This document shows, piece by piece, positions 1 to 35,668 of a stretch of DNA of 35,668 bases. The translations under genes and the position numbers were made by a program. The notes beneath the pieces were generated by a model. It ran no database searches, was not told the origin of the DNA, and saw only the letters and a list, made by a program, of their open reading frames with translations. Source of the DNA: a virus. How positions within the stretch are numbered: position 1 is the first letter of the stretch; each line of letters opens with the position of its first letter. The DNA is taken from positions 1-35,668 of the IMG/VR virus record IMGVR_UViG_3300034107_001581, one strand, 5' to 3'.

Positions 1-409
1 TTTCAACATCATCTGTAATAAAAATTGAGTTTACTGTACTTATATTATATTTTAAGATTAAATTATCAAAATTATCAGCGTCAATATTTTCTATAATCTC
101 TTCAACTAATCCTAATTTCACTAAGAAACCAAATTTAGAATTAAGTTTTTTGTTTGAATAAGGATTTTGATTACTTGAATATATTAATACTTTATACCCA
201 ATATATTTACAATTAAGTAAAATATCATAGTTATTGTCCCCGAAACTCTTTGCTCTTTCTGTATCATTTATTTGTTTATTTTTTTGATTATTAAACCGCC
301 AGTTTCTTAAAGAGCGGAACAAAACAAATTTTGCTAGTTTTAAACTGAAATCAAACAAATTATCATTTGCCGGTATGAAAGCGTATTTTTTTGTCCCGTA
401 ATTCTTCAT
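1..409 (-). CDS. Hypothetical protein, C-terminus cut by window edge
   Basis: The reading frame starts at an ATG on the minus strand at 407-409 and stays open for 136 codons to the window edge, so only the N-terminal part is visible. It begins MKNYGTKKYAFIPANDNL and contains a basic aromatic stretch (FRSLRNWRFNN) near residues 35-45, then a polar segment. No signal peptide, membrane helix or recognised motif was seen. A nearly identical copy starts at 35260 on the plus strand, and both copies stay open over the whole visible length, which supports a real gene. It diverges from the lipoprotein gene at 545 across a 135-nt spacer. I do not recognise the family. Confidence 0.65.
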   Translation of the reverse strand, partial: MKNYGTKKYAFIPANDNLFDFSLKLAKFVLFRSLRNWRFNNQKNKQINDTERAKSFGDNNYDILLNCKYIGYKVLIYSSNQNPYSNKKLNSKFGFLVKLGLVEEIIENIDADNFDNLILKYNISTVNSIFITDDVE

Positions 410-544
410 TTAGTGGCTATATGTTTTAAAGTTATTTCATTTTTCTAATTAATAATGTTTTATATCCAAAAAGTTACAAGGTTGTAAAGAATGTTTCAAT
501 CAAACATAGAGCGGTAATTTTGAATAAACCATAAAAATACCACT
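410..544. promoter_or_regulatory. Divergent intergenic region of the left repeat
   Basis: This spacer separates the minus-strand partial gene from the plus-strand lipoprotein gene, so it should hold both promoters. It is nearly identical to 35125-35259 except for a small block at about 493-506, where roughly 7 of 14 bases differ. In the left copy that block forms a short inverted repeat, ATGTTT-CAATC-AAACAT. No convincing Bacteroidota -33/-7 promoter pair was identified. Confidence 0.35.
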
Positions 545-1096
545 ATGAAAGCCCTAATCCTATCACTTTGCATAATCATCATTTTTACAAAATGTAGTCA
601 TACCCGCCTTGTAACAGAGCAATTTATTAAAAATGAAATTGAAAAACACGAGAATAAAGAGTTTAGTTCAATTAGGATATACTCTTTATACAAGAAGAAA
701 TTAAGTGATGTAACTTTTATAGAGCTTTCTGGTTATAAATACAATAGCGAAAAGAAATTAGTAATTACAGTAGATAAACTAAGTGCATTAAAAAAAGCTT
801 TCAAAGAAGACGCAACTAAATTGCAAAAAACTAGATTTGTTGTACTAGATGAGGAACAATGCAAGGGGATTTTAAATACTTACCTAGATTTACGTATACG
901 TATTGAAAATGAAAAACAAAAAAGAAGCGAGGATATTTACTCTGACTACACGGTGTCAAAAGACTTATTTGTAAGTTTTAAAAGAATGAGTAAAAATCAA
1001 AGAATGGAGAAAATGGACCTTTGGATTAATGGAGAAAAGTACACGGTTGTTACAAAAGAAATTATTAGTAAACTGAACAAGTTTATTGAGTATTAA
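545..1096 (+). CDS. Small putative lipoprotein, left copy
   Basis: A 183-aa protein with an N-terminal hydrophobic segment (residues 2-15) ending in FTKC, which fits a relaxed lipobox with Cys17 as the lipidated residue. The rest is charged and lysine-rich with no recognised domain. A second copy lies at 34573-35124 on the other strand. The two genes differ at about 44 of 552 nucleotides but only 8 amino acids, so most changes are silent and both copies appear to be kept under purifying selection. The start is the first ATG and precedes the signal sequence directly. It may be an envelope or immunity-type protein, but nothing in the sequence shows the function. Confidence 0.75.
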   Translation: MKALILSLCIIIIFTKCSHTRLVTEQFIKNEIEKHENKEFSSIRIYSLYKKKLSDVTFIELSGYKYNSEKKLVITVDKLSALKKAFKEDATKLQKTRFVVLDEEQCKGILNTYLDLRIRIENEKQKRSEDIYSDYTVSKDLFVSFKRMSKNQRMEKMDLWINGEKYTVVTKEIISKLNKFIEY

Positions 1097-1104
1097 ATTT
1101 TTAT

Positions 1105-1432: not shown

Positions 1433-3808
1433 TTAATTAATACTTTCCATTAGAGCATTAAACTGTTCAATGTCTTTCTCTTTTATTTTGTCAATTAATA
1501 ATTTAGCACACTCCTCAACTTCTTCAACGTCCATTGGCTTACAGCCTCTATCGATATAGGTTAAATGTGAATATTCATTTATAACCCTATTTAATAGAGT
1601 TGGAACTTGGTTGTCAAATAATTTACCTAAATTTTTAAGAGGATCATCTGTATTTGGGAATTTATAGAATAAATAGCATTCAAGAAATTTCCTCATGTTA
1701 TTAGGCAAATTATAAAGTTGATGATATGTGTTTTCTAGTTTGATTTTTTTATCGCCTTTTACTTCCTTATAGACATTGTAAATCTGTTCAAACAAATAAT
1801 TAAATTCTGTTGTATAATCCCTAAGATGGGATGGCATTGAAACTATGACACTCTTTTTTTCTGTCTTTTTATGCTGTCGTTCAACCATAAAATGATTAAT
1901 ACTATTCTTTTCATCAGGTTTTGTTAGCCTTTTAATGTACTTCAAAAAATCTAAGTTATGAGTTGAAATAAACAATTGTTCGTATTTCTTAGGTTTAGTA
2001 ATAATCGTTTCTATTAAACTAAACATTGAAAAAATATGATTGCTGTCCAAACTTGAAATTGGGTCATCAATATAAATAATCAGTTTTTTACTAATTAAAT
2101 CATCTTTTAGTAAATCTTCTATTTTCGCAATAAAATAACAAAACGAAATCAAACTACATTCACCTTCACTTAAATTTTTCGCTTCAACTTTGTCACGAGT
2201 GATTTTGAATTTAATGTTTGGTGCAACCCCATCTGGAATTAATTTTAACTCTTCATGTCCGAAGAATTGAGCTAAGTGTGTATTAACTAACTCTGCACCC
2301 TTTGATTCGTCATCACCTGCCGCTTTTAGTATTCTTCTCTTTTCTTCTAAGTCTTTAATTTCATTATTAATTACAGATAACGTACCATTTTGATTTGATA
2401 CAGCTAATTCAGAGGAAGTTAGGGCAGAAATTTTGCTTGGGTAATTAATTGATTTAATGAAATTAGCTACTTCTGATTTTCTTAATTCAGTTCTGTATGT
2501 GATTTGATCCTTATCTAAGGTATCAGTTCTGCTGTTATTACCTATTATAAGTTCATTTAGTGAAGTAAATAAATCATTAAAGTCATTTGTTAAATCTATT
2601 GCTGTATTTGGTTCAATAGCCTCAAATATATTTTGTTCTCTTGCTTCAAGTGATTCAATTAGAGATTTAATGTTTTTATCTAATTCACTTTTAAGGTTTT
2701 TCCATTTTAGATTAAGTGCTTCGAAGTTTACTTGATTAATTAAATAGAAATTTTCTTTTTTAAATTGCCAATACTCTTTAATTATTGGCTCATAAGCTTG
2801 AAGTGTTTTTATATAACTTTTAATTCCTTTTCTTAGTGCTTCTGACTCTAAATTAAAGTGTTCATCTAACTTTACCCATAAATCAGGCGGCAATACATTG
2901 CCACAAAAAGCACAGCTTTCCCTTTTTTCTTTATGTTTCTCGATACCGTCTCTAACCCAATTTTGTAGCAAAGAATCATTTACTAAATCAGTAAGTAGTT
3001 TATTAGGTTTTATTACTTTACTTAATAACTCATTTACTTTTGTTTGATGATCTGTAAAACCGATGTTCTTATTTACAATTGGGTTTATTTTTGGCAAAGA
3101 AATTTCTTTTAAAGCTAATTTTAATGTTTCAGTTTTCTCAATAGGCAATATATAAGATTCAGTATTTTCCAACACTAAAGCTATATCTTCTCTTAAATCA
3201 TTTGTTTGATATGTTTTCTTACTACTAGTTGGAACAAATAGATTGGGGTTTATTTTTATTTCATTATTTGCCTTATATTTTAAGGTACCTTCTAATTCAT
3301 TACTTTTAGTACTATGTTCACTCTTTTTTGTCAAATAAAGTTGTTCTGCTTCTGATTGTTCAAATAACAGGCCTTTCTTTTCTTCTAAATTGCCAAGTGC
3401 ATCATCAATTACCTTAATCTGATTATTTATATCATTATTTACTTCACCTAAAATTGTAAATGGTTCAATAGTTCCATCATCATTATGCAACCAACCCAAA
3501 TTATCTTTAACGAAATCTGAATTATAAACACAAATATTTAATTCACTCTTTTTTTGAATTAGATTGGCATTTGTTACTGTGCCACCATCTAATTCTTGAA
3601 AAACGAAATCTGCATTTGTATAATTTTTGTGTAGTTCCCCTTTTTCTATACATCTGAAAACCCTTGATAAAGTTGTTTTTCCAGAATAATTTCTACCATA
3701 AATTATATTTAATCTTTTAAATATACTTTCAGGATTGTTCCCAACATTTGGATTCCATTGATAATCGCTGAAAATGCCAAATTGATTAATGTCAATTTTT
3801 GTGAACAT
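1433..3808 (-). CDS. rloC: RloC-type anticodon nuclease (AAA/ABC ATPase with zinc hook)
   Basis: A 791-aa protein of the PrrC/RloC family. Walker A is GRNYSGKTT at residues 38-46. A CAFC zinc-hook motif (Cys299, Cys302) sits in the middle of a long helical, probably coiled-coil region. The ABC signature NLSEGE is near 545, and Walker B LIIYIDDPISSLD near 575-587. The C-terminus carries the nuclease triad pattern known from PrrC: Arg706 and Glu710 spaced R-x3-E, then His748. In the family, RloC cuts tRNA in the anticodon loop and removes the wobble nucleotide. The zinc hook separates it from PrrC. The gene is monocistronic and divergent from the damage-response operon at 4004. Family members often sit beside type I restriction genes; here the nearest hsd operon is over 20 kb away. 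The start is the ATG just before the conserved N-terminal ATPase strand. Confidence 0.9.
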   Translation of the reverse strand: MFTKIDINQFGIFSDYQWNPNVGNNPESIFKRLNIIYGRNYSGKTTLSRVFRCIEKGELHKNYTNADFVFQELDGGTVTNANLIQKKSELNICVYNSDFVKDNLGWLHNDDGTIEPFTILGEVNNDINNQIKVIDDALGNLEEKKGLLFEQSEAEQLYLTKKSEHSTKSNELEGTLKYKANNEIKINPNLFVPTSSKKTYQTNDLREDIALVLENTESYILPIEKTETLKLALKEISLPKINPIVNKNIGFTDHQTKVNELLSKVIKPNKLLTDLVNDSLLQNWVRDGIEKHKEKRESCAFCGNVLPPDLWVKLDEHFNLESEALRKGIKSYIKTLQAYEPIIKEYWQFKKENFYLINQVNFEALNLKWKNLKSELDKNIKSLIESLEAREQNIFEAIEPNTAIDLTNDFNDLFTSLNELIIGNNSRTDTLDKDQITYRTELRKSEVANFIKSINYPSKISALTSSELAVSNQNGTLSVINNEIKDLEEKRRILKAAGDDESKGAELVNTHLAQFFGHEELKLIPDGVAPNIKFKITRDKVEAKNLSEGECSLISFCYFIAKIEDLLKDDLISKKLIIYIDDPISSLDSNHIFSMFSLIETIITKPKKYEQLFISTHNLDFLKYIKRLTKPDEKNSINHFMVERQHKKTEKKSVIVSMPSHLRDYTTEFNYLFEQIYNVYKEVKGDKKIKLENTYHQLYNLPNNMRKFLECYLFYKFPNTDDPLKNLGKLFDNQVPTLLNRVINEYSHLTYIDRGCKPMDVEEVEECAKLLIDKIKEKDIEQFNALMESIN

Positions 3809-4003: not shown

Positions 4004-5179
4004 ATGGAAAGAACGATTGTGCATATGGATTTGGATAGCTTTTTTATTTCGGTAGAAAGGTTGATGGATTCCTCTTTAATTGGGAAACCTGTAATTGTTG
4101 GTGGTACTTCTGACAGGGGCGTTGTTGCATCTTGTAGTTATGAGGCTCGAAAGTTTGGTGTACATGCTGCTATGCCTACCCGAATGGCAAAGCAACTTTG
4201 TCCGCATGCTATTTTTATAAGGGGAGATATGGACGCGTACTCTAAACACTCAAATATTGTAACACAAATAATAGAAAGTGAAGCGCCTTTATTTGAAAAG
4301 GCAAGTATTGATGAGCATTATTTAGAAATTACTGGTATGGATAAGTATGTTAAAAATAGCATGCTTTGGAGCCATGAGCTGAGAGAGAAAATCATCAAAG
4401 AAACTGGCTTGCCAATTTCTTTTGGAATGTCGGAAAACAAAACAGTTTCTAAAATAGCTACAAGCGAATCAAAACCAAATGGAGAAAAGCAAATACTACA
4501 TGGTTTAGAAAAGTCTTTTTTAGCTCCTTTATCTATTCGTAAAATCCCTGGCATTGGAGAAAAAACAAATTCTACTTTGCAAAAAATGGGTATTTCAAAA
4601 ATTGAGACTATTCAAAATATGCCCATGATTGCCATGCAAAAGGTTTTGCAAGATAATGGGGCAACTATATGGCGTAAGGCAAATGGTATTGATAAAAGCC
4701 CTATTGAGCCTTTTACAGAGCAAAAAAGCATGAGTAAAGAAACTACGTTTGATAAAGACACTACCAATGCCGAACTATTGCAAAATATGTTAGTTGCTAT
4801 GATTGATACATTAGCCTTTGATTTAAGAAAATTACAAAAGGTTACTGGTTGTGTTACTATTAAATTAAAATATTCTGATTTTCAAACTCATACGTTTCAA
4901 GCAACCATACCTTATACAGCTTCTGACCATGTGCTTTTGCAAAAAGCAACTGAGCTGTTTCAAAAAAATTATAACCGAAGAGTTTTAATTAGATTGATAG
5001 GCGTAAAGTTTAGCAATTTAGTTTCGGGTTTTAATCAAATTAATTTGTTTGATGATACTGAAGAGAAAATTAATTTATATAATGCCCTTGATAAAATACG
5101 ATTACGCTTTGGAGAAAAAGCCATAGGCAAAGCCGTTGGCCTAAAAGAAAAAAAAGATACCAACGAACATGATACTTAA
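4004..5179 (+). CDS. dinB: DNA polymerase IV (Y-family translesion polymerase)
   Basis: A 391-aa Y-family polymerase. It has the N-terminal catalytic motif HMDLDSFF (Asp9, with Phe13/Phe14 in the steric-gate area) and the second catalytic motif SIDE with Asp103 and Glu104. A helix-hairpin-helix segment reads IRKIPGIGEKT near 180, followed by the little-finger region. A clamp-binding pentapeptide, QINLF, lies near residues 345-349, about 42 residues before the end. The enzyme copies past damaged template bases at low fidelity. It is the first gene of a damage-tolerance operon and its stop overlaps the start of the dnaE-type gene by 11 nt, which suggests coupled translation. The palindromes just upstream are the likely control point. 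Confidence 0.93.
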   Translation: MERTIVHMDLDSFFISVERLMDSSLIGKPVIVGGTSDRGVVASCSYEARKFGVHAAMPTRMAKQLCPHAIFIRGDMDAYSKHSNIVTQIIESEAPLFEKASIDEHYLEITGMDKYVKNSMLWSHELREKIIKETGLPISFGMSENKTVSKIATSESKPNGEKQILHGLEKSFLAPLSIRKIPGIGEKTNSTLQKMGISKIETIQNMPMIAMQKVLQDNGATIWRKANGIDKSPIEPFTEQKSMSKETTFDKDTTNAELLQNMLVAMIDTLAFDLRKLQKVTGCVTIKLKYSDFQTHTFQATIPYTASDHVLLQKATELFQKNYNRRVLIRLIGVKFSNLVSGFNQINLFDDTEEKINLYNALDKIRLRFGEKAIGKAVGLKEKKDTNEHDT

Positions 5180-8108
5180 TGGCCACTCTTATTACAGTTT
5201 AAGGTATGGCACATTATCCATTAAAGAATTAATAGACATTGCCAAAACCAACCAATACAATTGTATTGCTTTAACTGATATAAATAACACATCGGGCGTT
5301 TTACATTTTGTAAAGGCGTGTTATGATAATAGCATTAAACCAATTGTAGGGGCTGAGTTTAGAAAAGAAAATGAACTGTTATATGTAGCTATTGCCATTA
5401 ATAATGAAGGCTTTAGGGAAATTAACGAACTTTTAACTTTAACTAATTTAACTGGCGTGCCTTATCCTGAAAAGCCAGTATTTGAAAATTGTTATGTGAT
5501 ATACCCTTATGGTAAAGTTAATTTCCCGCTAAAAGACAATGAATATATTGGTGTACGGTTGGGCGACTTAACTAAAATTGTAGTTGAGAAAAAAGTGTTG
5601 CAAAAAAAATATGTAATACTGCAAAGTTCCACTTTTAAAAATAAACAAGGTTATGTGATACATAAAAAATTAAGAGCCATTGACCTTAATTTATTATTTG
5701 AGCAATTAAAGCCTGAACACTATGCACGAATTGATGAGTACATAGTGCCTAAACAAAAGCTGTTAGAGTATTTTGATGCTTTTCCGCACATTATACAAAA
5801 CACTAAAAAGCTTTGTACTATTGCCACCTTTGATTATGACTTTAAAGAAATTAAAAATAAGAAGACTTACACAGGTAGCGAATATGAAGACAAGTTACTA
5901 TTAGAGAAACTTGCCTTTGAAGGACTTGCTTTTAGATATAGTAAAACAAATCGTGTGGCGTTGGAGCGTGTGCGTAAAGAGTTGGAAATTATTAGTGAGT
6001 TAGGCTTTTGTGCTTATTTTTTAATTACATGGGATATTATTCAGTTTACTTGGAGTAAACAATATTATCATTATGGCAGAGGAAGTGGCGCAAATAGTAT
6101 TATTGCTTACTGTTTGCGAATAACTGACGTTGATCCTATTGAACTCAATTTATATTTTGAACGGTTCTTAAATCCTAAAAGAAAATCGCCACCCGATTTT
6201 GATATTGATTATAGTTGGAAAGATAGAGATGCTGTTTACGATTATATTTTTGAGCGTTACGGTGCAAAGCATACTGCTTTATTAGGAGCTATGGTAACTT
6301 TTCAGGATAGGTCGATTATTAGGGAAATGGGTAAAATACACGGTTTACCTAAAGAAGATATTGATAGACTGATAAGATACCCAACATCACCTTTAAACGA
6401 ATCGAAAATATGTAAAGAAATACTGGAGCAATACGATGCCATTGAAAGTTTTCCAAGCATACGAAGTATTCACGCAGGAGGTGTTTTAATTAGTGAAGAA
6501 CCTTTAACGTATTATACTGCTTTAGATATGCCACCAAAGGGCTATCAAACCACTCAGTTTGATATGCACATAGCGGAAGACGCTGGTTTTGAAAAACTCG
6601 ATATTTTAAGTCAGAGAGGTTTGGGGCATATTAAAGAAGCAAGGGAATTGATTTATATAAACAAAGGTATTGAAGTAGATATACATCAGATAGAAAAATT
6701 TAAAGTTGATGACGCTTGTAATAAATTATTAGTAAGTGGAAATACAACAGGCTGCTTTTATATTGAAAGCCCTGCTATGCGTATGCTCATACTAAAATTG
6801 CTTTGTGATAATTATTTGACCTTAGTTGCTGCAAGTTCAGTTATACGCCCAGGCGTTGCACGAAGTGGAATGATGGGGTCGTTTATTGAACGTCACCGAA
6901 AATTAAAAACAGTTGATTACTTGCACCCAATAATGAAAGAACAGTTGCAAGAAACTTATGGAGTAATGGTGTACCAAGAAGATGTGTTGAAAATTGCACA
7001 TCACTTTGGCGGTTTGGATTTATCAGATGCTGATGTGTTGCGAAGAATGATGAGCGGAAAGGCTCGTAATCAAAAGCAATTTGAGGAAATAGAACAAAAG
7101 TTTTTTAAGTATTGCGAAAAGCAAAAGTACCCCGAAGGATTAGGAATGAAAGTTTGGAAACAAATTGAATCCTTTGCAGGCTATAGTTTTGCTAAAGGGC
7201 ACTCGGCAAGTTACGCAGGCGAAAGCTACCAAAGTTTGTATTTAAAAGCACATTATCCTTTGGAGTTTATAGTAGCTGTTATTAATAATTTTGGTGGTTT
7301 TTATGGTACTCGTATCTATGTAAATGAAGCTCGTAAACTGGGAGGCATTGTACACTTGCCTTGTGTGAACAATAGCATTTATACTACTATGCTTTACGAC
7401 AAAGATATTTTCTTGGGCTTTATTCATATTAAATCGTTAGGCGAAGAAATTTCGCATAAAATAGTGAATGAGCGTTTAGCGAATGGTAACTATACATCGT
7501 TAGATAATTTTAAAATACGTACTAAAATATCATTAGAGCAATTAATTATTTTAATACGTGTTGATGCGTTCCGTTTTATAGGGCAGGACAAACGAGAGTT
7601 ATTGTGGGAGGCACACATGATTTATAATCCATCGGATTTAAAGCGTAAAGATGTGTCGCTAAGTATGTTTGAAGAGCCCTTAGTGAAATGGAAATTGCCA
7701 AAGCTAGAACGGAATAAAGTAGAAGATGCTTACGATGAAATGGAACTATTGGAGTTTCCGTTAAGCTTGAGCGAATTTGACCTTTTAAAAACAAAATCGA
7801 GGGGAGATTGCAAAGCAAACGACCTCACTAAATTTATAGGTAAAAAAGTACGAATGATAGGCAATTACGTTACACAAAAAACATTGAGAACATCCAATAG
7901 TAAATTAATGGCTTTTGGTACATTTTTAGATAGTGAAGGTAATTACTTTGATACAACACATTTTCCGCCAAGTTTAAAAGCTTATCCATTTAAAGGTTGG
8001 GGCGTTTATTTAGTGTTGGGCAAAGTTGTAGAGGAATTTGGAGTGCCGAGTATTGAAGTAGAAAAAATGGCAAAATTGGATATTGAACAGGACAAAAGAT
8101 TTAGTTAA
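5169..8108 (+). CDS. dnaE: DnaE-type DNA polymerase III alpha, probably error-prone (ImuC/DnaE2-like)
   Basis: A 979-aa C-family polymerase, shorter than a replicative DnaE (about 1160 aa in E. coli). The N-terminal PHP domain starts NGHSYYSLRYG, where the usual H-x-H metal pair reads H-x-Y, and the later TD-H motif reads TDIN, so the PHP site looks degenerate. The palm carries GRGSGANSI near residue 300 and the catalytic PDFDID with Asp343 and Asp345. The fingers region MVYQEDVLKIAH and DADVLRRMMSGK are well kept. A C-terminal OB-like segment is present, but the long tail of replicative DnaE is missing. Linkage to dinB and SRAP points to a translesion role, analogous to the imuB-dnaE2 pair, rather than chromosome replication. 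Confidence 0.92.
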   Translation: MILNGHSYYSLRYGTLSIKELIDIAKTNQYNCIALTDINNTSGVLHFVKACYDNSIKPIVGAEFRKENELLYVAIAINNEGFREINELLTLTNLTGVPYPEKPVFENCYVIYPYGKVNFPLKDNEYIGVRLGDLTKIVVEKKVLQKKYVILQSSTFKNKQGYVIHKKLRAIDLNLLFEQLKPEHYARIDEYIVPKQKLLEYFDAFPHIIQNTKKLCTIATFDYDFKEIKNKKTYTGSEYEDKLLLEKLAFEGLAFRYSKTNRVALERVRKELEIISELGFCAYFLITWDIIQFTWSKQYYHYGRGSGANSIIAYCLRITDVDPIELNLYFERFLNPKRKSPPDFDIDYSWKDRDAVYDYIFERYGAKHTALLGAMVTFQDRSIIREMGKIHGLPKEDIDRLIRYPTSPLNESKICKEILEQYDAIESFPSIRSIHAGGVLISEEPLTYYTALDMPPKGYQTTQFDMHIAEDAGFEKLDILSQRGLGHIKEARELIYINKGIEVDIHQIEKFKVDDACNKLLVSGNTTGCFYIESPAMRMLILKLLCDNYLTLVAASSVIRPGVARSGMMGSFIERHRKLKTVDYLHPIMKEQLQETYGVMVYQEDVLKIAHHFGGLDLSDADVLRRMMSGKARNQKQFEEIEQKFFKYCEKQKYPEGLGMKVWKQIESFAGYSFAKGHSASYAGESYQSLYLKAHYPLEFIVAVINNFGGFYGTRIYVNEARKLGGIVHLPCVNNSIYTTMLYDKDIFLGFIHIKSLGEEISHKIVNERLANGNYTSLDNFKIRTKISLEQLIILIRVDAFRFIGQDKRELLWEAHMIYNPSDLKRKDVSLSMFEEPLVKWKLPKLERNKVEDAYDEMELLEFPLSLSEFDLLKTKSRGDCKANDLTKFIGKKVRMIGNYVTQKTLRTSNSKLMAFGTFLDSEGNYFDTTHFPPSLKAYPFKGWGVYLVLGKVVEEFGVPSIEVEKMAKLDIEQDKRFS

Positions 8109-8135
8109 ACCTTATATTTATACAGAATAAAAACC

Positions 8136-8873
8136 ATGTGTTATAACGTATCAACAAAAAAAGTAAGTAAAGAAACTGAGAAGCAATTTAAAGCAAAAAT
8201 TGATCCTGCTGTAACTGTGCCTTCAAACTATTATGTATCGGGTTTTACACAACCTTTAGTGCCAGTTATAAGCACATTGAACCCTGAACTCATTACAGCT
8301 TTTAATTGGGGCTTAATACCAGATTTTTGTAAAACTGATTTGGATGCAAAAGATATGCAATTAAAAACATTGAACGCCAAAAGTGAAACGGTGTTTACAT
8401 TGCCATCTTTTAAAAATTCGATTAGAGAAAAAAGATGTTTGGTTATAGTTGATGGCTTTTATGAATGGCGAACCATAGGCAAACAGAAATATCCTTATTT
8501 TATACATTACAAGGATAGTGAGGTATTTGCCATGGGCGGTATTTTTAATGATTGGGTAAATAAACAAACAGGCGAACAAACAAAAACATTTTCAATTATT
8601 ACAACACCTGCCAATGAATTAATGGGTAAAATACATAATGCCAAAATGCGAATGCCTTTTATATTACCAAAAGGCACTGAACGTGACTGGCTTAATTTGA
8701 ACTTAAAAGACAATGAAATAGTTGACCTAATGAAACCAATTGCCGAAGGCGAGTTGGAGGCACATACTATTTCAAAACTCATTACCAATAAAAATAAAAA
8801 CCCTGATACGGCTGAGGTGCAATTGGCATTTGAATATCCTGAATTGGCGTTTATTGATAGTTTAGAAACTTAA
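8136..8873 (+). CDS. yedK: SRAP/HMCES-family abasic-site shield protein
   Basis: A 245-aa SRAP-domain protein. Cys2, which becomes the N-terminal residue after Met removal, is the nucleophile that links to abasic sites in single-stranded DNA. Other family residues are present: the Asn in LNAKSET (usually NARSE), Glu in DGFYEW, and His in IHNAKMRMP, which carries an extra residue compared with the usual HxRMP. The family protects abasic sites at stalled forks as a DNA-protein crosslink. The gene follows the dnaE-type gene by 27 nt and is followed by an unknown gene after 9 nt, so all four genes are probably one operon. Confidence 0.92.
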   Translation: MCYNVSTKKVSKETEKQFKAKIDPAVTVPSNYYVSGFTQPLVPVISTLNPELITAFNWGLIPDFCKTDLDAKDMQLKTLNAKSETVFTLPSFKNSIREKRCLVIVDGFYEWRTIGKQKYPYFIHYKDSEVFAMGGIFNDWVNKQTGEQTKTFSIITTPANELMGKIHNAKMRMPFILPKGTERDWLNLNLKDNEIVDLMKPIAEGELEAHTISKLITNKNKNPDTAEVQLAFEYPELAFIDSLET

Positions 8874-9385: not shown

Positions 9386-9408
9386 TGACTAAGAAAAATA
9401 TTTAGTCA
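9386..9408. terminator. Small stem between convergent genes
   Basis: TGACTAA and TTAGTCA form a perfect 7-bp stem around a 9-nt A-rich loop. It lies between the stop at 9368 and the convergent gene ending at 9402, and it includes that gene's stop codon. It may act in both directions, but it lacks a strong T-run. Confidence 0.3.
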
Positions 9409-9998
9409 ACTACATTATCAAATTTATAAATTGCATTAATAAAATTATTTTTATTAATAGAAAATGAGTTTGAAATGTCATCTAATGGACTTATTGCGGT
9501 ATTTGGAAGTTGATTAATTCGATCAGAAATATCATCCCTCATAATATCATATAAATTTAACATCTGATTATAATGGTTACTATTTATTGCACCAAGTAAA
9601 TCGATAAATTTACTTTCAAAATCATTAAAACTAATATCTAATGTATTAATTGTACTTGTTTTTATGGCGGGAGTAATAGTCACACCATTTAAAGTTTGTA
9701 TAGTTGCACTAATAGAATCTATTAATGTATATAAATTACTAATATTTGGCTCAATTATTAGAATCTTATACATTTCTAACCTTGTACTAAGTATACTCTG
9801 TTGTAAAAAATTCAACTGGTCTGCTTTGTCTTTCTTCCTTTGATAAACAAATACATAAAAACTTAATCCAATAGTTAAAACAGCAATTAATATATTTGCA
9901 ATATCCCCAATTTTAACATCAAGAAAACTACTCGGAGAATTAAATTCAACAATATATTTTGATACTTTTTCGGTAATATTTTTACAACAACAACACAT
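9402..9998 (-). CDS. Single-span membrane protein, last gene of a putative defence operon
   Basis: A 198-aa protein with one clear membrane helix, near residues 30-52 (ANILIAVLTIGLSFYVFVYQ), followed by the basic RKKDK. That places the C-terminal three quarters in the cytoplasm by the positive-inside rule. The C-terminal part looks helical and has no recognised domain. The N-terminus is odd: MCCCCKN, four cysteines in a row, which could bind metal or be modified. It begins 3 nt after the stop of the STAS-like gene at 10002 and is therefore very likely co-transcribed and perhaps translationally coupled. A membrane effector or anchor for the neighbouring ATPase is a plausible job, by inference only. 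Confidence 0.75.
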   Translation of the reverse strand: MCCCCKNITEKVSKYIVEFNSPSSFLDVKIGDIANILIAVLTIGLSFYVFVYQRKKDKADQLNFLQQSILSTRLEMYKILIIEPNISNLYTLIDSISATIQTLNGVTITPAIKTSTINTLDISFNDFESKFIDLLGAINSNHYNQMLNLYDIMRDDISDRINQLPNTAISPLDDISNSFSINKNNFINAIYKFDNVVD

Positions 9999-10001
9999 AA
10001 C

Positions 10002-10331
10002 TTATTTTAAAGCATTACCAGTTCTTAGTATTCTTTTAATGGCAGTTTCTAAATTTTTTTCAATTTTATATCCACCAGGGTTATCAAATTTAAATTTTTT
10101 CAAAAACGTATCTTTACCTAATTTTTTAACAACATCAGAAAAGAATTCTTCCAAAAATGAAGGACTCAAAGTTATTAGGTCTTTTGGTAAAATAATTATT
10201 ACATCAGAACAACTAGCTTCAATTTCATTAATATGAGAATCTTTTCTAACTTGTTTACCTCTATCTCTACCAGTAAATATTAATGCATTTTGAAACAAAT
10301 AATTATTGAGGTCTATTATATTATTTTTCAT
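10002..10331 (-). CDS. STAS-like (DUF4325-type) small protein
   Basis: A 109-aa protein that looks like a complete STAS-like domain of the DUF4325 type. It has GRDRGKQVRKD near residues 21-31, a beta strand VIIILPKDL, then the family-typical serine-rich helix start LSPSFLEEFFSDVVKKLG (residues 55-73) and a last strand FLKKFKFDN. STAS-like domains usually serve as regulatory partners of GHKL ATPases or sigma regulators in partner switching. Its start overlaps the end of the GHKL ATPase gene by 11 nt, a strong sign that the two proteins work together. The product is predicted to be cytoplasmic. Confidence 0.7.
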   Translation of the reverse strand: MKNNIIDLNNYLFQNALIFTGRDRGKQVRKDSHINEIEASCSDVIIILPKDLITLSPSFLEEFFSDVVKKLGKDTFLKKFKFDNPGGYKIEKNLETAIKRILRTGNALK

Positions 10332-11685
10332 TTTCTATGATATCGTTTTTTGAAATACAAATATTAGCATAAATCATTACTCCTGGGAAATAATTATCTA
10401 CAAATTTAACATAATTTTGGTCAGGTTTCTCGTCTAGAGTGTTTTCTGCATTAAAAGGAATGATTTTAAATTCCTCATTTTTTGCATTAAATTTGGGGTA
10501 GGTCTTATATTTTCCATCGAATTTTATCAAAGTATTTCCTGAAAACAAATGAAAATTAGAAGGTTTACTATCTGCATCATCGGCTAATTCCAAAAAATTC
10601 TCAATAAATTTAATAGTACCATTTCCCCTAGTGTTGTCAACACTACTTACACCATCTTGTAAAGAATACAAGGTCCATAATGTTTCTTCTTCAAATTTGG
10701 AACCATTTAAAAATCCAAAAAAACCTTTTTTTGTATATTTGTCTGATAAATTCCTCATATCATCCAAAATTGCTTGGTTTTTACAAGCTTCGGGATTTTT
10801 AAATCTTTCATAAATAGATTCTCCAAAATTAAAAATCACCAATTGAAATTTTCCAATATGTTTATCATTATTAGTATTTTCTTCAAAATGGCCAATTGAA
10901 TAATGAAAATTTGTTTTATTATGTTCCTCTGCATTGGCAATTACTTCAGCAATAATTTCTCCAAAATTTTCCCTCGCATCTTGGGTCAATTTTTTATTCA
11001 TTTTAATTAAACACTTCTCAATATGCTGAACTAACTTGGTACTTTCAACGTCTTTATATGCAATACCTTTACGTTTATCGCCAATAGTCAAATCACAAGT
11101 TAAAATGTTTGGGAAAATAATTTTTTTATTCCCGATAATTTTGTGAGAACCAATTGCATATAAAAATTTTGAAACGGTTTCATTAATAAGGTTTTCAGTA
11201 TTAATTTTACGCGTTTCTAAAATGATTTTCCTCTCATTACATGATTTAAAGGCATTTATAAATTCAAGTAAAATTATATCATTACAAATAGAAGCATCAA
11301 GATCAATACGCACACATTTCTTATAATTAATTTTTATCCTCTTGCTTTTAGGATACCGTAGTGTATATAACAAGTCTTTCAAGAATTGAAAACTTTCTTT
11401 TGGTGATTCTACTAACGAAAATATTTTAGGGACATTTAATACTCCATTCTTAGGAATATGCGCTGGCTTATCAGTAAAGAAATTCTTATTTTCAAATAAG
11501 AATTTTAGTGGTTCTGATAAATCAAATTCATCAATAATGCAAGTGTTTTTTTTATTTATATTAGAATTTGCAGTAGTCTTTTTTATAATTGGATAAAAAA
11601 CTTTTCCTGCACGACCAATAGATTTAATAAATCTATTAAATCCTCTTTTGTTTTTTCTATATTGCTTAAATGCCTGTTTTTTCAA
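10321..11685 (-). CDS. STAS-like domain fused to GHKL (HATPase) ATP-binding domain
   Basis: A 454-aa protein. After a basic N-terminus (residues 1-35) there is a STAS-like region at about 80-185, with strands such as RIKINYKKCVRIDLDAS and a helix around 167-181. A GHKL ATPase follows: N-box E247-x3-N251-x2-E-H255 (AEVIANAEEHNK), a G1-like box NFGESI at 286-291 where the usual Asp is Asn, and a G2-like TRGNGT at 352-357. There is no dimerisation/phospho-acceptor histidine segment, so a classical sensor kinase is unlikely. An anti-sigma or partner-switch type ATPase, or a MORC/Hsp90-like switch, fits better. The start codon is TTG; no ATG occurs in frame until deep inside the domain. It sits 29 nt downstream of the membrane nuclease gene. 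Confidence 0.75.
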   Translation of the reverse strand: MKKQAFKQYRKNKRGFNRFIKSIGRAGKVFYPIIKKTTANSNINKKNTCIIDEFDLSEPLKFLFENKNFFTDKPAHIPKNGVLNVPKIFSLVESPKESFQFLKDLLYTLRYPKSKRIKINYKKCVRIDLDASICNDIILLEFINAFKSCNERKIILETRKINTENLINETVSKFLYAIGSHKIIGNKKIIFPNILTCDLTIGDKRKGIAYKDVESTKLVQHIEKCLIKMNKKLTQDARENFGEIIAEVIANAEEHNKTNFHYSIGHFEENTNNDKHIGKFQLVIFNFGESIYERFKNPEACKNQAILDDMRNLSDKYTKKGFFGFLNGSKFEEETLWTLYSLQDGVSSVDNTRGNGTIKFIENFLELADDADSKPSNFHLFSGNTLIKFDGKYKTYPKFNAKNEEFKIIPFNAENTLDEKPDQNYVKFVDNYFPGVMIYANICISKNDIIENEK

Positions 11686-11714: not shown

Positions 11715-12845
11715 TTATGTTAAACATTCCGTATTTCTATCGAAGTAAAACTTTGCAGATAGTGATTTAATGTAATCATTCTTTAAATTGCTCTTATATA
11801 GCTTATTAGATTCGATATGAGGTAATGGAATTAAATACAATTCTTCAGGAGCGGTTGGTTCACCGCCAACACCTAAAACAAGATATACTTGAATGTTGTT
11901 TTCTCTTTCAAAGTTTTTATACTCTTGCAATTTATCATAACTTCCTAAATCAACACAACCACCTGAAAAATTGCTTCTAAACTTACATTCTACTGCTATT
12001 TTTCTGCTATAATCTTTGTGACTAAACTCTAATTCTAAATCAGGATATTTATTTGATTCAGGAAAATGATTAGGTGCTTTTTTATCGCTTCTCCAACTTT
12101 TGCATTTAAAATATTTATTAGAAAACCTTTCTATAACAAAGACTTCAAAATCATCTCCTTTCTTTTTGTTTATTTCGTCCTTACTAAGAATAGGATTTTC
12201 TTTAGGCAAACCGATATTTGCCTCTTTTAAATCTTGAACTATTTTACTGCTCAATTTATCAATATCAATACTATTGTTATTTGTTACAACTTCTTTAACT
12301 GGCTCTTCAATTGATTTTGATTTGGCTTTGTTTTTACGGTAAACTAAAATACCTACACCCATAGCAAATAAACCACCAATTAAGAAAACATATAAAGGAC
12401 TAGATTTACTTTTAACTAAAGGAACTTCTCCATTTACTCCAGTTTTTAGGGGTGCTTGGTTTAACAATTCAAAACTTAATTCTTTTGTATTATCTGCATT
12501 TTTCCAAGTACCATTAAACTTATCATTATTTAAAATGCCTTCAAACTTTCCTGTAATTTTGCCCTTGTAATTATTTTCAAAGATGATACAATTACCGGTC
12601 TTACCAATTGTACCATCAAGGGTTAAATAATATTTATTGTTATCGTAATAATAAATGCCTTTGATTTTATCATCAATTTGATTTAAAAAAATAGAAACAT
12701 GAAGCCGATTATCAATAGTTCCTTTATATTTTAAAGAAAAAGTTGATAAATCAACATCTTTAACTAGATTAATTGGCTTTGCATTTATTTTATTAGAAAA
12801 TAAATTTGAAGTTATAATCAAAATTAAAATAATTATTCTGTTCAT
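11715..12845 (-). CDS. Membrane-anchored PD-(D/E)XK nuclease with extracytoplasmic domain
   Basis: Numbering is from an upstream ATG at 12869; I prefer the ATG at 12845 (residue 9) because it gives a clean signal peptide, MNRIIILILIITSNLF. A beta-rich extracytoplasmic domain follows (about 45-137), with the repeating pattern KYKGTI...IKGIYYYD...GKFEGIL..NGTW seen in many Bacteroidota envelope proteins. A membrane helix spans about 158-177 (PLYVFLIGGLFAMGVGILVY) and is followed by RKNKAKSK, so the C-terminus should be cytoplasmic. That part carries a restriction-like nuclease core: Glu242, then Asp277 in YPDLELEF, and Glu294-Cys-Lys296 in IAVECKF. This is the spacing of a PD-(D/E)XK active site. 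It may sense something outside and cut DNA at the inner face. It lies between the type IIG gene and the GHKL ATPase. Confidence 0.75.
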   Translation of the reverse strand: MNRIIILILIITSNLFSNKINAKPINLVKDVDLSTFSLKYKGTIDNRLHVSIFLNQIDDKIKGIYYYDNNKYYLTLDGTIGKTGNCIIFENNYKGKITGKFEGILNNDKFNGTWKNADNTKELSFELLNQAPLKTGVNGEVPLVKSKSSPLYVFLIGGLFAMGVGILVYRKNKAKSKSIEEPVKEVVTNNNSIDIDKLSSKIVQDLKEANIGLPKENPILSKDEINKKKGDDFEVFVIERFSNKYFKCKSWRSDKKAPNHFPESNKYPDLELEFSHKDYSRKIAVECKFRSNFSGGCVDLGSYDKLQEYKNFERENNIQVYLVLGVGGEPTAPEELYLIPLPHIESNKLYKSNLKNDYIKSLSAKFYFDRNTECLT

Positions 12846-12907
12846 AATTTTTAGTAGGCTATTTAACATTCAGTTTTATTAATAATATTTGGCTTTATCA
12901 TACTCAT

Positions 12908-15900
12908 TTATCCCTCGACAATTTTAATTTCTTCTTCTGTTAAATCATAAAGCTTATAAACCATTTGGTCTATTTCTTTATCCGTTGCATCAATTTTTGA
13001 TTTTAGTTCTAATGCTTTTTTTGATTCTGTATTAAAGTACTCTTCCCACTCTGCCTCATCAGATAAAGACAATTTAATTTTCTTTTTAGATAATTCTTTA
13101 ATAAAATCTGAATATGATATCGAATAAAATTCTTGAAGTTTTTTAGATAAACTAGATAAAGAGAATTTTCTTTGTAAACTTCTAATAAACTTATCTTCTA
13201 ATTCTGTTAACTCTTTATTTAACATTAGAATTAACTTTGATTTATCTATTAAATTTTCATCATTAATATTAGGTATAGGACATTTTTTTAAATAAACTGG
13301 TTTTATTTCGTAATCCAAATATTTTGTAGAAAATAACCAATTATAGAAAGAAGAATTTAATACAGCTAAAAGGCCTAATAAAGAATTATTGCCTTGCGCA
13401 ATTATATTAGATAACCTATTCAAATTATATTTTTTTTCATTGTCAAACGTTGCAACTATTCGTCTTTTCATACTTAAATTTCGAGTACGAACAACTAAAA
13501 TTTTATCACTAGTAAAGTATTTCTCTAAAGGCAAGGCTCTACCTCGGTCTCCTTTGCTTTTCACGAAATCTTTATCATACATGATCCATTCTTCAGATAT
13601 ACATTTCCCATATCTTGAAATGCCCGTACCGGGAACCATAGGATGATATTTTTCATTTATTTGACTTTTACTCACAAGTTCATCCTTTATGTAACCAGTA
13701 TTTATACCAACACCTAGGTCAAAACAATCTTCCATTTTACTGTAAGTTTCCTCTAATTTTGAAAGAAAATTAAATGCATCATCAGATAAGTTGCAATCGA
13801 ATATAAAATCTTTATTTTCGGAAAACCTTGTCTTATTAATTATTCTAAAATCTCTTTTTAATATATCAAAGCTGTTTTTTGGGTTACCTATTTTTATAAA
13901 ACTAGAATTAGATTCCTTTTTTATAATAAAAATTGCTGTATCAACTGTCGCATCTTCAAATACACTTGGACCTAATGGAATTAATTCTATCAAATCATTA
14001 TTAGTCAACATTAATTTTCTGAGTTTTTTAAAACTGGTTTGAATCAAAAAAGATGATGATGTTATGAATGAAAATAAACCTTGTGTCTTTGATAAAACTA
14101 AGCCTTTTTCAATGAAAAATTTGTATAAATCAAAATTCCCTTCATAAGAAATATAATTGTTTTCAAAGAATTTTTTCTCATCATTAGAAATTGTATTTCT
14201 ATAAGAATAAGGTGGATTTCCAATAATAACATCAAAACCACCTTTATCAAATATTTTAGAAAATTGCTGTTGCCAATTAAAAGCTTTACCTCCTGCTACT
14301 GCAATATCATCAATTAATGAATTGCCACATTTAATGTTGCTGTTTAAATCGTTTAATTTGCGGTTAGGTTGTGCAGTACGAAGCCATAAGGATAGTTTGG
14401 CAATTTCTACACTTTCTTCGTTTATATCAACACCAAATAAGTTGTTTTCTAAAATACTGCCCTCAACATCACTTAATACCAATGCATCACCAAATAATTT
14501 GGCTTGTAGTTCATCAATATATCTGTGTTCGGTAATTAAAAAATCGAGAGCTTGATTTAAAAATGCACCCGAGCCACAGGCAGGATCGCAAATGGTTAAT
14601 TGCAATAACCAATTACGATACTCATTTAATTTATCTGTTAACGCTTGTGTTGTTTTCTTTTGGCGTTTTTTATCTATGGTGTAATCGCTTTCTGTTATTA
14701 GTAATGCTTCCTTTTTTTCAAGACAAAGCTTACCAACTGTATTGTCAACAATGTATTTGGTTATGTATTTAGGCGTATAAAAAACACCATCTTTTTTACG
14801 CTTAGTTTTTGTTTTATCTATTTCCTGTCCTTCAAGCTGTGCTTTTATTTCGTCAACATCATTTAATGAGTTTTCGAAAATATGCCCTAGAACGTTTACA
14901 TCAACTTCACTGGCAAAATCATAATTACTTAATTTTTCGGTATGAGAAAATAGTAATTCATCTTCAATTTTAATGTCGTTTAATAAATCATCTGTTTTAA
15001 ACAAACCACCGTTATAGGCGTATATTTGAAATTCTTCTACTTGCTTATTAGCAGTTTGGCTAAATGCAGGTAATGATACGGTTGCTCCACAATCCAAATC
15101 ATTAAAGTAAATTTTATAGCGGTCGTAAAGCGAAACTTCAATTCGCATATTACGGAGTTGTTGCCATTCCTTATTAATTCTAAAAATTAAATTGGTTGGT
15201 AATAGTTGGCGGTCTTCTGCAAAAAAGATGAATAAAAAACGGTCTAGTAATTTTTGTGATTTTTTAAATAGCTCTAATGGTTCGTATTGAGGATTTAGTT
15301 TTACTAAACTGTGGTATAGTTCGTTTTTAAATTGCGAGTAATCATTGTAAAGTTTTTTGGTAATTAAACTCTCCTGGCTAACTGATTCGTCTTTTATTTG
15401 CTTTGGTAGGCCTTTGGCTATGCTCTCATAAGATAAACAGATGTAAAGCAGTTCAAATTCTTTTTCGGTAAGTGTAAATAAATTAAACTCTGTGTATTCA
15501 ATGGCATTATCAATATAAAAACGGATTTTCTCAAAATTTGATGTGATAACATACTCGCACTCCGGTTGGTTATTTTTATATCCAAATGCCTGAACTTCTA
15601 TTTTATTTAAATCGGTTGTATTAGTGCCTTTTAATTCAATTACTGCTTTTACAATATCATTAATAATAATTGCCCCATCAGCCTTTTTACTATCCTTAAC
15701 GTTTTTGTATTCGGTTGTTAGATTAAAATTTGGCGTCGGATTTTTGGTGTAACCTAAAACATTAACAAATAAATCAATTAAAAATTCGCCTTGATATTGT
15801 TCTTCTTTACTGCCTCTGATGTTTTCTTGAATAGTGGCATTATGGAAATGGGCTCTGAACTTAGCGTAAGCATTTTGTAATGTTTGCTTATCTAGGTTCT

Positions 15901-15940
15901 GAATATATTTATTAATTACTGAGTTTTGAAAAAAGGCCAT
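12908..15940 (-). CDS. Type IIG (Eco57I-like) single-chain restriction-modification enzyme
   Basis: A 1010-aa fusion of nuclease and N6-adenine methyltransferase. The N-terminal nuclease core shows Asp88 in KKADGAI and Glu102-Leu-Lys104 in AVIELKG, a D-x13-ExK pattern. A helical connector follows. The methyltransferase has VFYTPKYI near 390, motif I CDPACGSGAFL near 450-460 and motif IV IIGNPPY near 572-577. The C-terminal third resembles a TaqI-like target-recognition domain. Such enzymes methylate and cut at a short asymmetric site without separate subunits. PglX of BREX has a similar methylase, but no other BREX gene is present. This is the first gene of a run of five minus-strand genes, with 38 nt to the next by the longest reading of that gene. 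A 68-nt gap with no obvious terminator separates it from the upstream S1/P1 nuclease gene. Confidence 0.9.
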   Translation of the reverse strand: MAFFQNSVINKYIQNLDKQTLQNAYAKFRAHFHNATIQENIRGSKEEQYQGEFLIDLFVNVLGYTKNPTPNFNLTTEYKNVKDSKKADGAIIINDIVKAVIELKGTNTTDLNKIEVQAFGYKNNQPECEYVITSNFEKIRFYIDNAIEYTEFNLFTLTEKEFELLYICLSYESIAKGLPKQIKDESVSQESLITKKLYNDYSQFKNELYHSLVKLNPQYEPLELFKKSQKLLDRFLFIFFAEDRQLLPTNLIFRINKEWQQLRNMRIEVSLYDRYKIYFNDLDCGATVSLPAFSQTANKQVEEFQIYAYNGGLFKTDDLLNDIKIEDELLFSHTEKLSNYDFASEVDVNVLGHIFENSLNDVDEIKAQLEGQEIDKTKTKRKKDGVFYTPKYITKYIVDNTVGKLCLEKKEALLITESDYTIDKKRQKKTTQALTDKLNEYRNWLLQLTICDPACGSGAFLNQALDFLITEHRYIDELQAKLFGDALVLSDVEGSILENNLFGVDINEESVEIAKLSLWLRTAQPNRKLNDLNSNIKCGNSLIDDIAVAGGKAFNWQQQFSKIFDKGGFDVIIGNPPYSYRNTISNDEKKFFENNYISYEGNFDLYKFFIEKGLVLSKTQGLFSFITSSSFLIQTSFKKLRKLMLTNNDLIELIPLGPSVFEDATVDTAIFIIKKESNSSFIKIGNPKNSFDILKRDFRIINKTRFSENKDFIFDCNLSDDAFNFLSKLEETYSKMEDCFDLGVGINTGYIKDELVSKSQINEKYHPMVPGTGISRYGKCISEEWIMYDKDFVKSKGDRGRALPLEKYFTSDKILVVRTRNLSMKRRIVATFDNEKKYNLNRLSNIIAQGNNSLLGLLAVLNSSFYNWLFSTKYLDYEIKPVYLKKCPIPNINDENLIDKSKLILMLNKELTELEDKFIRSLQRKFSLSSLSKKLQEFYSISYSDFIKELSKKKIKLSLSDEAEWEEYFNTESKKALELKSKIDATDKEIDQMVYKLYDLTEEEIKIVEG

Positions 15941-34447: not shown

Positions 34448-34572
34448 TCATTCTTTTTCGTTCTGTTCGATTTCCAATTCATCAAATGGATTTTTATTAC
34501 CTCTTTCCTCTCCTGTAAACTCTTTGATGAGTCTATTGGAGGGATTTTCATTTTTATCTTTTTCATCAATGT
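34448..34572 (-). pseudogene. Gene-tail fragment next to the right lipoprotein copy
   Basis: On the minus strand a frame without its own start reads NRLIKEFTGEERGNKNPFDE and ends in a TGA at 34448-34450. It resembles the end of the small frame at 1105-1248. It looks like the C-terminal tail of a lost or truncated gene. The rest of 34384-34447 shows nothing beyond the outer limit of the inverted-repeat similarity (34424). Confidence 0.3.
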
Positions 34573-35124
34573 CTAATATTCAATAAACTTGTTCAGTTTA
34601 GTAATAATTTCCTTTGTAACAACAGTGTACTTTTCTCCGTTAATCCATAAGTCCATTTTCTCCATTCTTTGATTTTTACTCATTCTTTTAAAACTCACAA
34701 ATAAGTCTTTTGATACCGTGTAGTCAGAATAAATATCTTCACTTCTTTTTTGTTTTTCATTTTCTATGCGTATTCGTAAATCTAGGTAAGTATTTAAAAT
34801 CCCTTTGCACTGTTCCTCATCCAGTACAATAAATCTAGTTTTTCGCAATTTAGTTTCGTCTTCTTTAAAAGCTTTTTTTAAATTGCTGAGTTTATCTACA
34901 GTAATTACTAATTTCTTTTCACCATTATATTTATACCCAGAAAGCTCTATAAAAGTAAAATCACTTAATTTCTTCTTGTATAAAGAGTAAATCCGTATCG
35001 AACTAAATTCTTTATTCTCGTGTTTTTCAATTTCATTTTTAATAAATTGCTCTGTTACAAGGCGGGTATGACTACATTTTGTAAAAATGATGATCGTGCA
35101 TAGAGATAGGATTAGGGCTTTCAT
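34573..35124 (-). CDS. Small putative lipoprotein, right copy
   Basis: A 183-aa protein that differs from the left copy (545-1096) at 8 residues: I10T, and seven single changes spread over the rest, such as V to F in SDFTF and Q to R in KLRKT. The N-terminal hydrophobic segment and FTKC lipobox-like site are unchanged. Of about 44 nucleotide differences most are silent, so the copy appears functional. The gene ends in TAG instead of TAA. It converges on the hsd operon, with 189 nt between stop codons. The function is unknown. Confidence 0.75.
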   Translation of the reverse strand: MKALILSLCTIIIFTKCSHTRLVTEQFIKNEIEKHENKEFSSIRIYSLYKKKLSDFTFIELSGYKYNGEKKLVITVDKLSNLKKAFKEDETKLRKTRFIVLDEEQCKGILNTYLDLRIRIENEKQKRSEDIYSDYTVSKDLFVSFKRMSKNQRMEKMDLWINGEKYTVVTKEIITKLNKFIEY

Positions 35125-35259
35125 AGTGGTATTTTTATGGTTTATTCAAAATTACCGCTCTACAATTAATTAATATATTCTTTACAACCTTGTAACTTTT
35201 TGGATATAAAACATTATTAATTAGAAAAATGAAATAACTTTAAAACATAAAGCCACTAA
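35125..35259. promoter_or_regulatory. Divergent intergenic region of the right repeat
   Basis: This is the counterpart of 410-544. It is nearly identical except for the short block near 35163-35176, where the left copy's ATGTTT/AAACAT inverted repeat is replaced by an A/T-only TTAATTAA-type sequence. It should hold promoters for the lipoprotein gene and the partial gene. Confidence 0.35.
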
Positions 35260-35668
35260 ATGAAGAATTACGGGACAAAAAAATACGCTTTCATACCGGC
35301 AAATGATAATTTGTTTGATTTCAGTTTAAAACTAGCAAAATGTGTTTTGTTCCGCTCTTTAAGAAACTGGCGGTTTAATAATCGAAAAAATAAACAAATA
35401 AATGATACAGAAAGAGCAAAGAGTTTCGGGGACAATAACTATGATATTTTACTTAATTGTAAATATATTGGGTATAAAGTATTAATATATTCAAGTAATC
35501 AAAATCCTTACTCAAACAAAAAACTTAATTCTAAATTTGGTTTCTTAGTGAAATTAGGATTAGTCGAAGAAATTATAGAAAATATTGATGCCGATAAATT
35601 TGACAATTTAATCTTAAAATATAATATAAGTACAGTAAACTCAATTTTTATTACAGATGATGTTGAAA
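35260..35668 (+). CDS. Hypothetical protein, right copy, C-terminus cut by window edge
   Basis: The frame opens with ATG at 35260 and stays open to the window end (136 codons), giving the same visible length as the left copy at 1-409. Three amino-acid differences were noted: F to C in KLAKCVL, Q to R in NNRKNK, and N to K in DADKFD. By eye the nucleotide sequence is about 98% identical to the left copy. There is no signal peptide or membrane segment in the visible part. The family is not recognised. Confidence 0.65.
   Translation, partial: MKNYGTKKYAFIPANDNLFDFSLKLAKCVLFRSLRNWRFNNRKNKQINDTERAKSFGDNNYDILLNCKYIGYKVLIYSSNQNPYSNKKLNSKFGFLVKLGLVEEIIENIDADKFDNLILKYNISTVNSIFITDDVE

Follow-up and report, generated by a model that had tools for sequence, protein, structure and literature searches.

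The locus described here raises the question of what is done by a protein that joins, in one chain, an N-terminal export signal and exported domain, a single predicted transmembrane helix, and a nuclease fold. We give about an even chance (roughly 50%) to the reading that this protein is a DNase tethered to the inner membrane, where it acts on invading DNA, with the exported domain serving to locate or trigger the enzyme. The computed basis for this reading comprises the fold, the conserved catalytic residues, the predicted topology, a recurring architecture, and a defense-gene neighborhood.

The gene lies on an IMG/VR record (IMGVR_UViG_3300034107_001581) of 35,668 bases, which was analyzed at its full length and is called the window below. 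The record is classed as viral, and its gene content has the look of Bacteroidota chromosomal or integrative DNA. Both record ends carry the following feature.

Window 1-1104 and 34565-35668: 1,104-base inverted repeats, 94% alike

Each repeat holds a near-identical gene for a 183-amino-acid protein. The window also encodes an RteC protein and a pair of tyrosine integrases, both of the Arm-DNA-bind_5/SAM_5 type (Pfam), together with type IIG and type I restriction-modification systems (PADLOC), and a PHROGs scan of the window unknowns gave no phage structural match. The sequence probably represents part of an integrative element and not a virus, and the membrane-nuclease gene appears to sit on a bacterial mobile defense island. 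Elsewhere in the window, genes for DNA polymerase IV, a DnaE-type polymerase III alpha, and an SRAP-like protein (by eye) stand consecutively at 4004-8873 (plus strand), a row that is a possible mobile mutagenic-repair cassette. An AAA_13 protein encoded at 1433-3808 (minus strand) matches PDC-S06, a candidate defense family, with an E value of 1.2e-254 (PADLOC). An 801-amino-acid protein encoded after the type I restriction-modification genes (31978-34383, plus strand) has an N terminus that weakly matches (E 2.4e-4, PADLOC) the REase-like domain of an Argonaute-associated family.

The nuclease gene is a single unbroken open reading frame, and its catalytic part is arranged as follows.

11715-12869, minus strand: predicted membrane-tethered PD-(D/E)XK protein, 384 amino acids
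11718-12182, minus strand: PD-(D/E)XK nuclease domain, residues 230-384 (AlphaFold2 and Foldseek)
12144-12146, minus strand: E242, the helix-A glutamate (G-x-x-F-E), conserved in 90% or more of 22 sequences
12039-12041, minus strand: D277 of the PD motif, invariant in 22 sequences
11982-11990, minus strand: E294-C295-K296, the E-x-K motif, in which E294 and K296 do not vary across 22 sequences

A sequence-only reading of this DNA had begun the gene at 12845, which is the second ATG (Met9) rather than the first, whereas its residue numbers for D277, E294, and K296 correctly count from the first ATG, as do those used here (PD at residues 276-277 and E-C-K at 294-296). A start at ATG 12845 would give a protein of 376 amino acids, and it may be the true one because the start of a relative, L084, aligns with Met9.

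AlphaFold2 predicts residues 230-384 with pLDDT values mostly above 90 and in the order alpha-beta-beta-beta-alpha-beta (helix 230-246; strands 254-259, 278-284, and 287-298; helix 311-324; strand 327-334). Both the core of the PD-(D/E)XK superfamily, in this predicted fold, and its active site, in an alignment of 22 sequences, are thus present, and the structure prediction bore out the fold that had been proposed, with no other fold appearing. The alignment comprises the window protein and 21 relatives that are 18-42% identical to it. Invariant in all 22 are F241, D277, E294, K296, Y317, G333, and P341, and conservation is 90% or higher at G238, E242, P276, G336, and P348, so Asp277 and Glu294-x-Lys296, singled out beforehand for their PD-(D/E)XK spacing, are retained throughout. 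A comparison with Mrr and HsdR folds had been suggested; the nearest solved folds found by Foldseek in the PDB are instead an Archaeoglobus Hjc resolvase (2wiw, E 3.2e-4) and R.SwaI (5tgq, E 5.9e-4), followed by a weaker match to a chain of the SPARDA complex (9jsz, E 8e-3). Likewise, none of the 22 sequences matched the Pfam models Mrr_cat or HSDR_N at E 0.1. With a pI of 7.8, the domain lacks a strongly basic character.

Searches with the window protein gave no meaningful family match in Pfam, NCBIfam, PADLOC, or PHROGs, no PADLOC model match at E 0.01, and no PDB sequence match at E 10. A profile searched against the PDB recovered ST1444/Hjc alone (E 0.22, too weak by itself), and some relatives weakly touch the Pfam models PDDEXK_11, PDDEXK_15, and McrBC.

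Relatives are patchily distributed, occurring in 0-4% of the sampled Bacteroidota genomes per group. None was found among 299 genomes from the genus that includes Flavobacterium psychrotolerans, in single-protein scans of genome and viral contig collections, in tblastn searches of plasmids and phages, or in a search of viral contigs with a six-row nuclease alignment. The Bacteroidota relatives form a modular family with three layouts, here called class A, class B, and solo. Class A has four members (the window protein, L084, L097, and L121) and consists of an export signal, an exported domain of about 90-130 residues, a transmembrane helix, and the nuclease. Class B begins with a transmembrane helix, which is followed by a linker or a TerB-like segment and then the nuclease; the TerB match of L122 (E 1.2e-3) falls short of the Pfam cutoff, and that of L117 (E 1.8e-5), a protein lacking a transmembrane helix, passes it. 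The solo layout is a nuclease without a clear transmembrane helix and includes an archaeal plasmid protein (L106). One further protein (L086 1483-2463, plus strand) has the reversed order of nuclease, transmembrane helix, and C-terminal domain. The tree does not group class A as a single clade: it places the window domain nearest L113 and L114, which are of the N-terminal-transmembrane type, and L084 elsewhere, neither placement being decisively supported. It may be that the class-A layout evolved, or disappeared, on more than one occasion.

The N-terminal half of the window protein carries three features.

12780-12845, minus strand: export signal, residues 9-30, with a hydrophobic core and a candidate signal peptidase I site, INA|KP (sequence and hydropathy)
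12471-12737, minus strand: exported beta-barrel domain, residues 45-133 (AlphaFold2)
12321-12398, minus strand: transmembrane helix, residues 158-183 as predicted, with a basic stretch after it

These agree with the signal peptide, the beta-rich domain, and the single transmembrane helix followed by basic residues that had been noticed in the letters alone. Three homologues have export signals of their own, namely a lipobox (LFISC) in L084, ARA|ND in L121, and LQA|ES in L097. The barrel is predicted with eight strands and a mean pLDDT of 82.7 from seven aligned sequences, and its Foldseek matches are designed barrels, FABPs, and lipocalins (best E 2.9e-3, others weaker), which makes a lipocalin/FABP-type fold class likely but not certain. 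The hydropathy window of the transmembrane helix covers residues 159-177; the 15 residues on its C side have a net charge of +4, compared to +1 on the N side. Between the helix and the nuclease, some 45 residues are predicted to form a short, partly disordered linker.

Among class-A proteins, the nuclease is kept while the exported domain is exchanged. L084 has a window-type barrel and repeats the whole architecture of the window protein, to which it is 26% identical over most of its length (BLASTP E 3e-33, residues 48-373), whereas L097 and L121 carry an exported domain that is unrelated to the barrel and that also occurs in an exported Citrobacter protein (tblastn E 7e-4). This second domain has an NTF2/SnoaL look by eye only and no Pfam match. 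The barrel itself is found in otherwise unrelated exported Bacteroidota proteins (L082, L088, L090, and L091). Because the barrel occurs in such proteins and is replaced in relatives, an adapter or a plain anchor would be as likely a role for it as the sensor of phage binding or envelope stress that was first suggested.

These observations also bear on whether the protein could be an envelope-triggered abortive nuclease, in which damage to the outer barrel, or a ligand bound by it, activates or releases the nuclease so that host DNA is degraded and phage spread is stopped. A lipocalin/FABP-like barrel outside the cell membrane could indeed bind a ligand, and a single transmembrane helix with a partly disordered linker could be cleaved. 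However, no protease site or partner was identified, and the barrel is not only swapped for the unrelated domain of L097 and L121 but is absent from other relatives. We regard this alternative as unlikely, though deserving of some weight, and continue to favor a tethered DNase directed at invading DNA.

A defense setting is supported by comparison for class A, in which all four genes lie near defense genes (PADLOC, E < 1e-30). The class-A neighbor in the window is the type IIG gene. Locus L092 has Hachiman HamA and HamB and a PtuB-like HNH protein, with no adjoining restriction-modification genes; L100 has PrrC and a type I methyltransferase (MTase_I) about 6 kb away and also an HNH protein; and L141 has a type I specificity subunit, PrrC, and a type I REase. 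PrrC-like genes are thus seen near two class-A members (L100 3-872 and L141 795-1976), in both cases linked to type I restriction-modification genes. For comparison, the same threshold was applied to the 106 proteins of 18 windows of 11 kb drawn at random from related genomes. At most 3 of the 106 proteins, and so at most 3 of the 18 windows, were positive, and one of the hits was an RtcR-type regulator. The Fisher p value is about 0.005 for four of four, or about 0.015 for three of three without the window, for flanks that were not exactly equal in length.

Class-B loci are mixed. Type IIG genes of a different subfamily lie two genes from the class-B members at L101 and L131, and a DUF262-type protein is encoded at L130, but most class-B loci examined are among ordinary genes (e.g., L102, L133, L136, and L137). 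At L102 9323-10123 (minus strand), an N-terminal-transmembrane relative lies between purN and purH, outside any defense island. A PADLOC tally around the N-terminal-transmembrane loci was set aside, as it included generic matches and was not assignable per locus. Class B may have a role different from that of class A, and the defense claim is tempered because class-B loci lie among ordinary genes and their topology, described below, is ambiguous. The many N-terminal-transmembrane members that stand alone among ordinary genes would suit a nondefense role, such as the processing of DNA imported by natural transformation or the work of a chromosomal nuclease at the membrane, with the copies on defense islands having been recruited. 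The patchy spread of the family is nevertheless unlike that of a housekeeping gene, and the class-A copies are all in defense neighborhoods; we therefore consider a nondefense role rather improbable and retain defense against incoming DNA for class A.

The two genes that flank the nuclease gene are as follows.

12908-15940, minus strand: type IIG restriction-methyltransferase, upstream of the nuclease gene by 38 bp
10321-11685, minus strand: probable HATPase-type gene, 29 bp downstream, identified by motif and eye only

The upstream gene is assigned by PADLOC (REase_MTase_IIG, E 6.7e-287) and Pfam (Eco57I, 4e-45). No terminator-like site was found between it and the nuclease gene, and co-transcription of the two is therefore plausible from the sequence. 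The nuclease might then be an accessory subunit of the adjoining restriction-modification, either cleaving DNA that the type IIG or type I enzyme has marked or translocated, or anchoring that enzyme at the membrane. Besides the close spacing in the window, the type IIG genes near L101 and L131 and the type I genes adjoining at L141 speak for such a partnership. Yet the neighbor at L092 is Hachiman, many relatives have no restriction-modification neighbor, and none of 80 loci with the window-type type IIG family has a nuclease relative nearby, so the type IIG gene and the nuclease gene are not a fixed operon. An accessory role consequently strikes us as quite improbable, and a tethered DNase directed at incoming DNA remains the preferred reading.

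The downstream gene seems to belong to a separate conserved cassette, with relatives in L103, L105, and L140. Probable HATPase-type and STAS-like DUF4325 genes overlap and recur together (window 9402-11685, minus strand; L103 7794-10175; L105 5425-7907; L140 2405-3846), and the HATPase and STAS-like proteins are respectively 40% and 43% identical to those of the window on a Spirosoma plasmid and 41% and 46% identical in L140. In the window, L103, and L105, the pair is followed by a further gene, of low conservation, whose product has a membrane helix. Our literature search found no paper on this HATPase-STAS-like pair. L140 also has a nuclease relative without a transmembrane helix about 3 kb from the pair. 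A single system made of the nuclease, HATPase, and STAS-like proteins was considered and dropped, because the pair occurs without the nuclease on Spirosoma pSLIN01 (L103).

Topology was read from the export signals and from the positive-inside rule applied to the net charges of the residues flanking the transmembrane helix. As in the window protein, net charge is higher on the nuclease-side flank than on the outer one in L084 (+4/+2), L097 (+3/-1), and L121 (+6/-3). Because all four class-A members combine an export signal with a more positive nuclease-side flank, the evidence favors a cytoplasmic class-A nuclease with the N-terminal domain outside. The proposed placement of the nuclease at the inner membrane face, behind an exported domain, is thereby upheld as a prediction, with the C terminus inside and not outside. 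In L086, despite the reversed order, the nuclease side is again positive (+4/0). The flank charges of class-B helices are ambiguous and do not place the nuclease clearly inside, and the Thr/Pro-rich linkers of L113 and L114 are such that the nuclease could even be outside; therefore, we restrict the predicted topology to class A. A further alternative is that the nuclease fold faces outward, is inactive, or acts on RNA, so that the protein would break down nucleic acid outside the cell or not serve as a DNase at all. The charge patterns and linkers of L113 and L114 would fit an outside C terminus, but the export signal and positive C-side flank of class A, the several relatives that lack any export signal and should be cytoplasmic, and the retained active-site residues render this alternative very improbable.

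In the mechanism that we propose for the tethered DNase, the N terminus would be exported and fold as a small periplasmic beta-barrel, and one transmembrane helix would anchor the protein in the inner membrane. The cytoplasmic PD-(D/E)XK domain would then cut DNA entering at the membrane during phage injection, and perhaps during conjugation or transformation, while the tether would keep the nuclease off the chromosome. The exported domain would serve as an interchangeable adapter, placing the nuclease or switching it on, and this triggering step is suggested by domain placement alone. DNA cutting, defense, the discrimination of self from nonself by location, and the role of the outer domain are the parts that we infer. 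One point against the proposal is that class A comprises only four loci, whose shared defense neighborhood could reflect island hitchhiking. The lack of strong basicity in the nuclease domain and the shortness and partial disorder of the linker also count against it.

Several known systems resemble the window protein in part. The best fold matches of the catalytic domain are archaeal Hjc proteins (2wiw, 2wcw, and 2eo0; TM-score on target 0.58-0.65), but Hjc is a soluble resolvase with 14-20% sequence identity, and the likeness is in the predicted fold. R.SwaI (5tgq) shares the PD-(D/E)XK fold but is soluble, sequence specific, and paired with its own methyltransferase. The more weakly matched SPARDA chain belongs to a short-Argonaute system, and no such partner is seen here. 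Zorya and Kiwa couple the detection of phage entry at the membrane to a DNA-acting component (reviewed in PMC12904381), as is proposed here, but these are multigene systems whose membrane and DNA-acting proteins are separate (PMC12904381), and PADLOC detected none of their components among the window genes scanned.

The closest precedent in mechanism is SNIPE (PD-lambda-1), described in 2026 as a membrane-bound antiphage nuclease with one transmembrane helix, whose N-out/C-in topology was established with PhoA-LacZ fusions (PMC13190303). SNIPE cleaves phage DNA during injection and becomes toxic once its transmembrane helix is removed; its nuclease is conserved, its N-terminal regions are very variable, and some members lack the helix (PMC13190303). 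The family described here is similar in being encoded by a single gene, in having, in class A, one transmembrane helix with the N terminus predicted outside and the nuclease predicted inside, in its conserved nuclease and variable N-terminal region, and in including members without the helix. As SNIPE shows this topology and cuts phage DNA at injection, it lends the proposed mechanism support by analogy. In contrast, SNIPE combines DUF4041 with a GIY-YIG nuclease, and its transmembrane helix is near the N terminus, falling in residues 1-70 in its homologues, whereas the window protein has a PD-(D/E)XK nuclease and a folded exported domain. DUF4041 gave no Pfam match at E 0.1 in the 22 sequences, and the nuclease is PD-(D/E)XK, with GIY-YIG absent; the protein is therefore not a SNIPE member. 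SNIPE's DUF4041 binds the phage tape-measure protein and DNA (PMC13190303), and that it has no counterpart here is a point against a SNIPE-like mechanism.

SNIPE and a review came up in our search of the open-access literature, which yielded no account of a PD-(D/E)XK equivalent. We tentatively suggest, while holding it to be somewhat doubtful, that these proteins are an undescribed single-gene family of anti-invader nucleases convergent with SNIPE, in which the outer domain sets the phage range and the nuclease stays constant. The family lies outside the domain and defense libraries searched and would thus escape annotation. If the suggestion is true, DNA cutting at the membrane evolved more than once, from unrelated nucleases; location is a general bacterial means of telling foreign DNA from their own; and the exchangeable exported domain gives a direct, testable way into the question of how such guards locate the point of entry. 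By sequence and by analogy, the window protein may then work like SNIPE without being its homologue, the resemblance being at most convergent.
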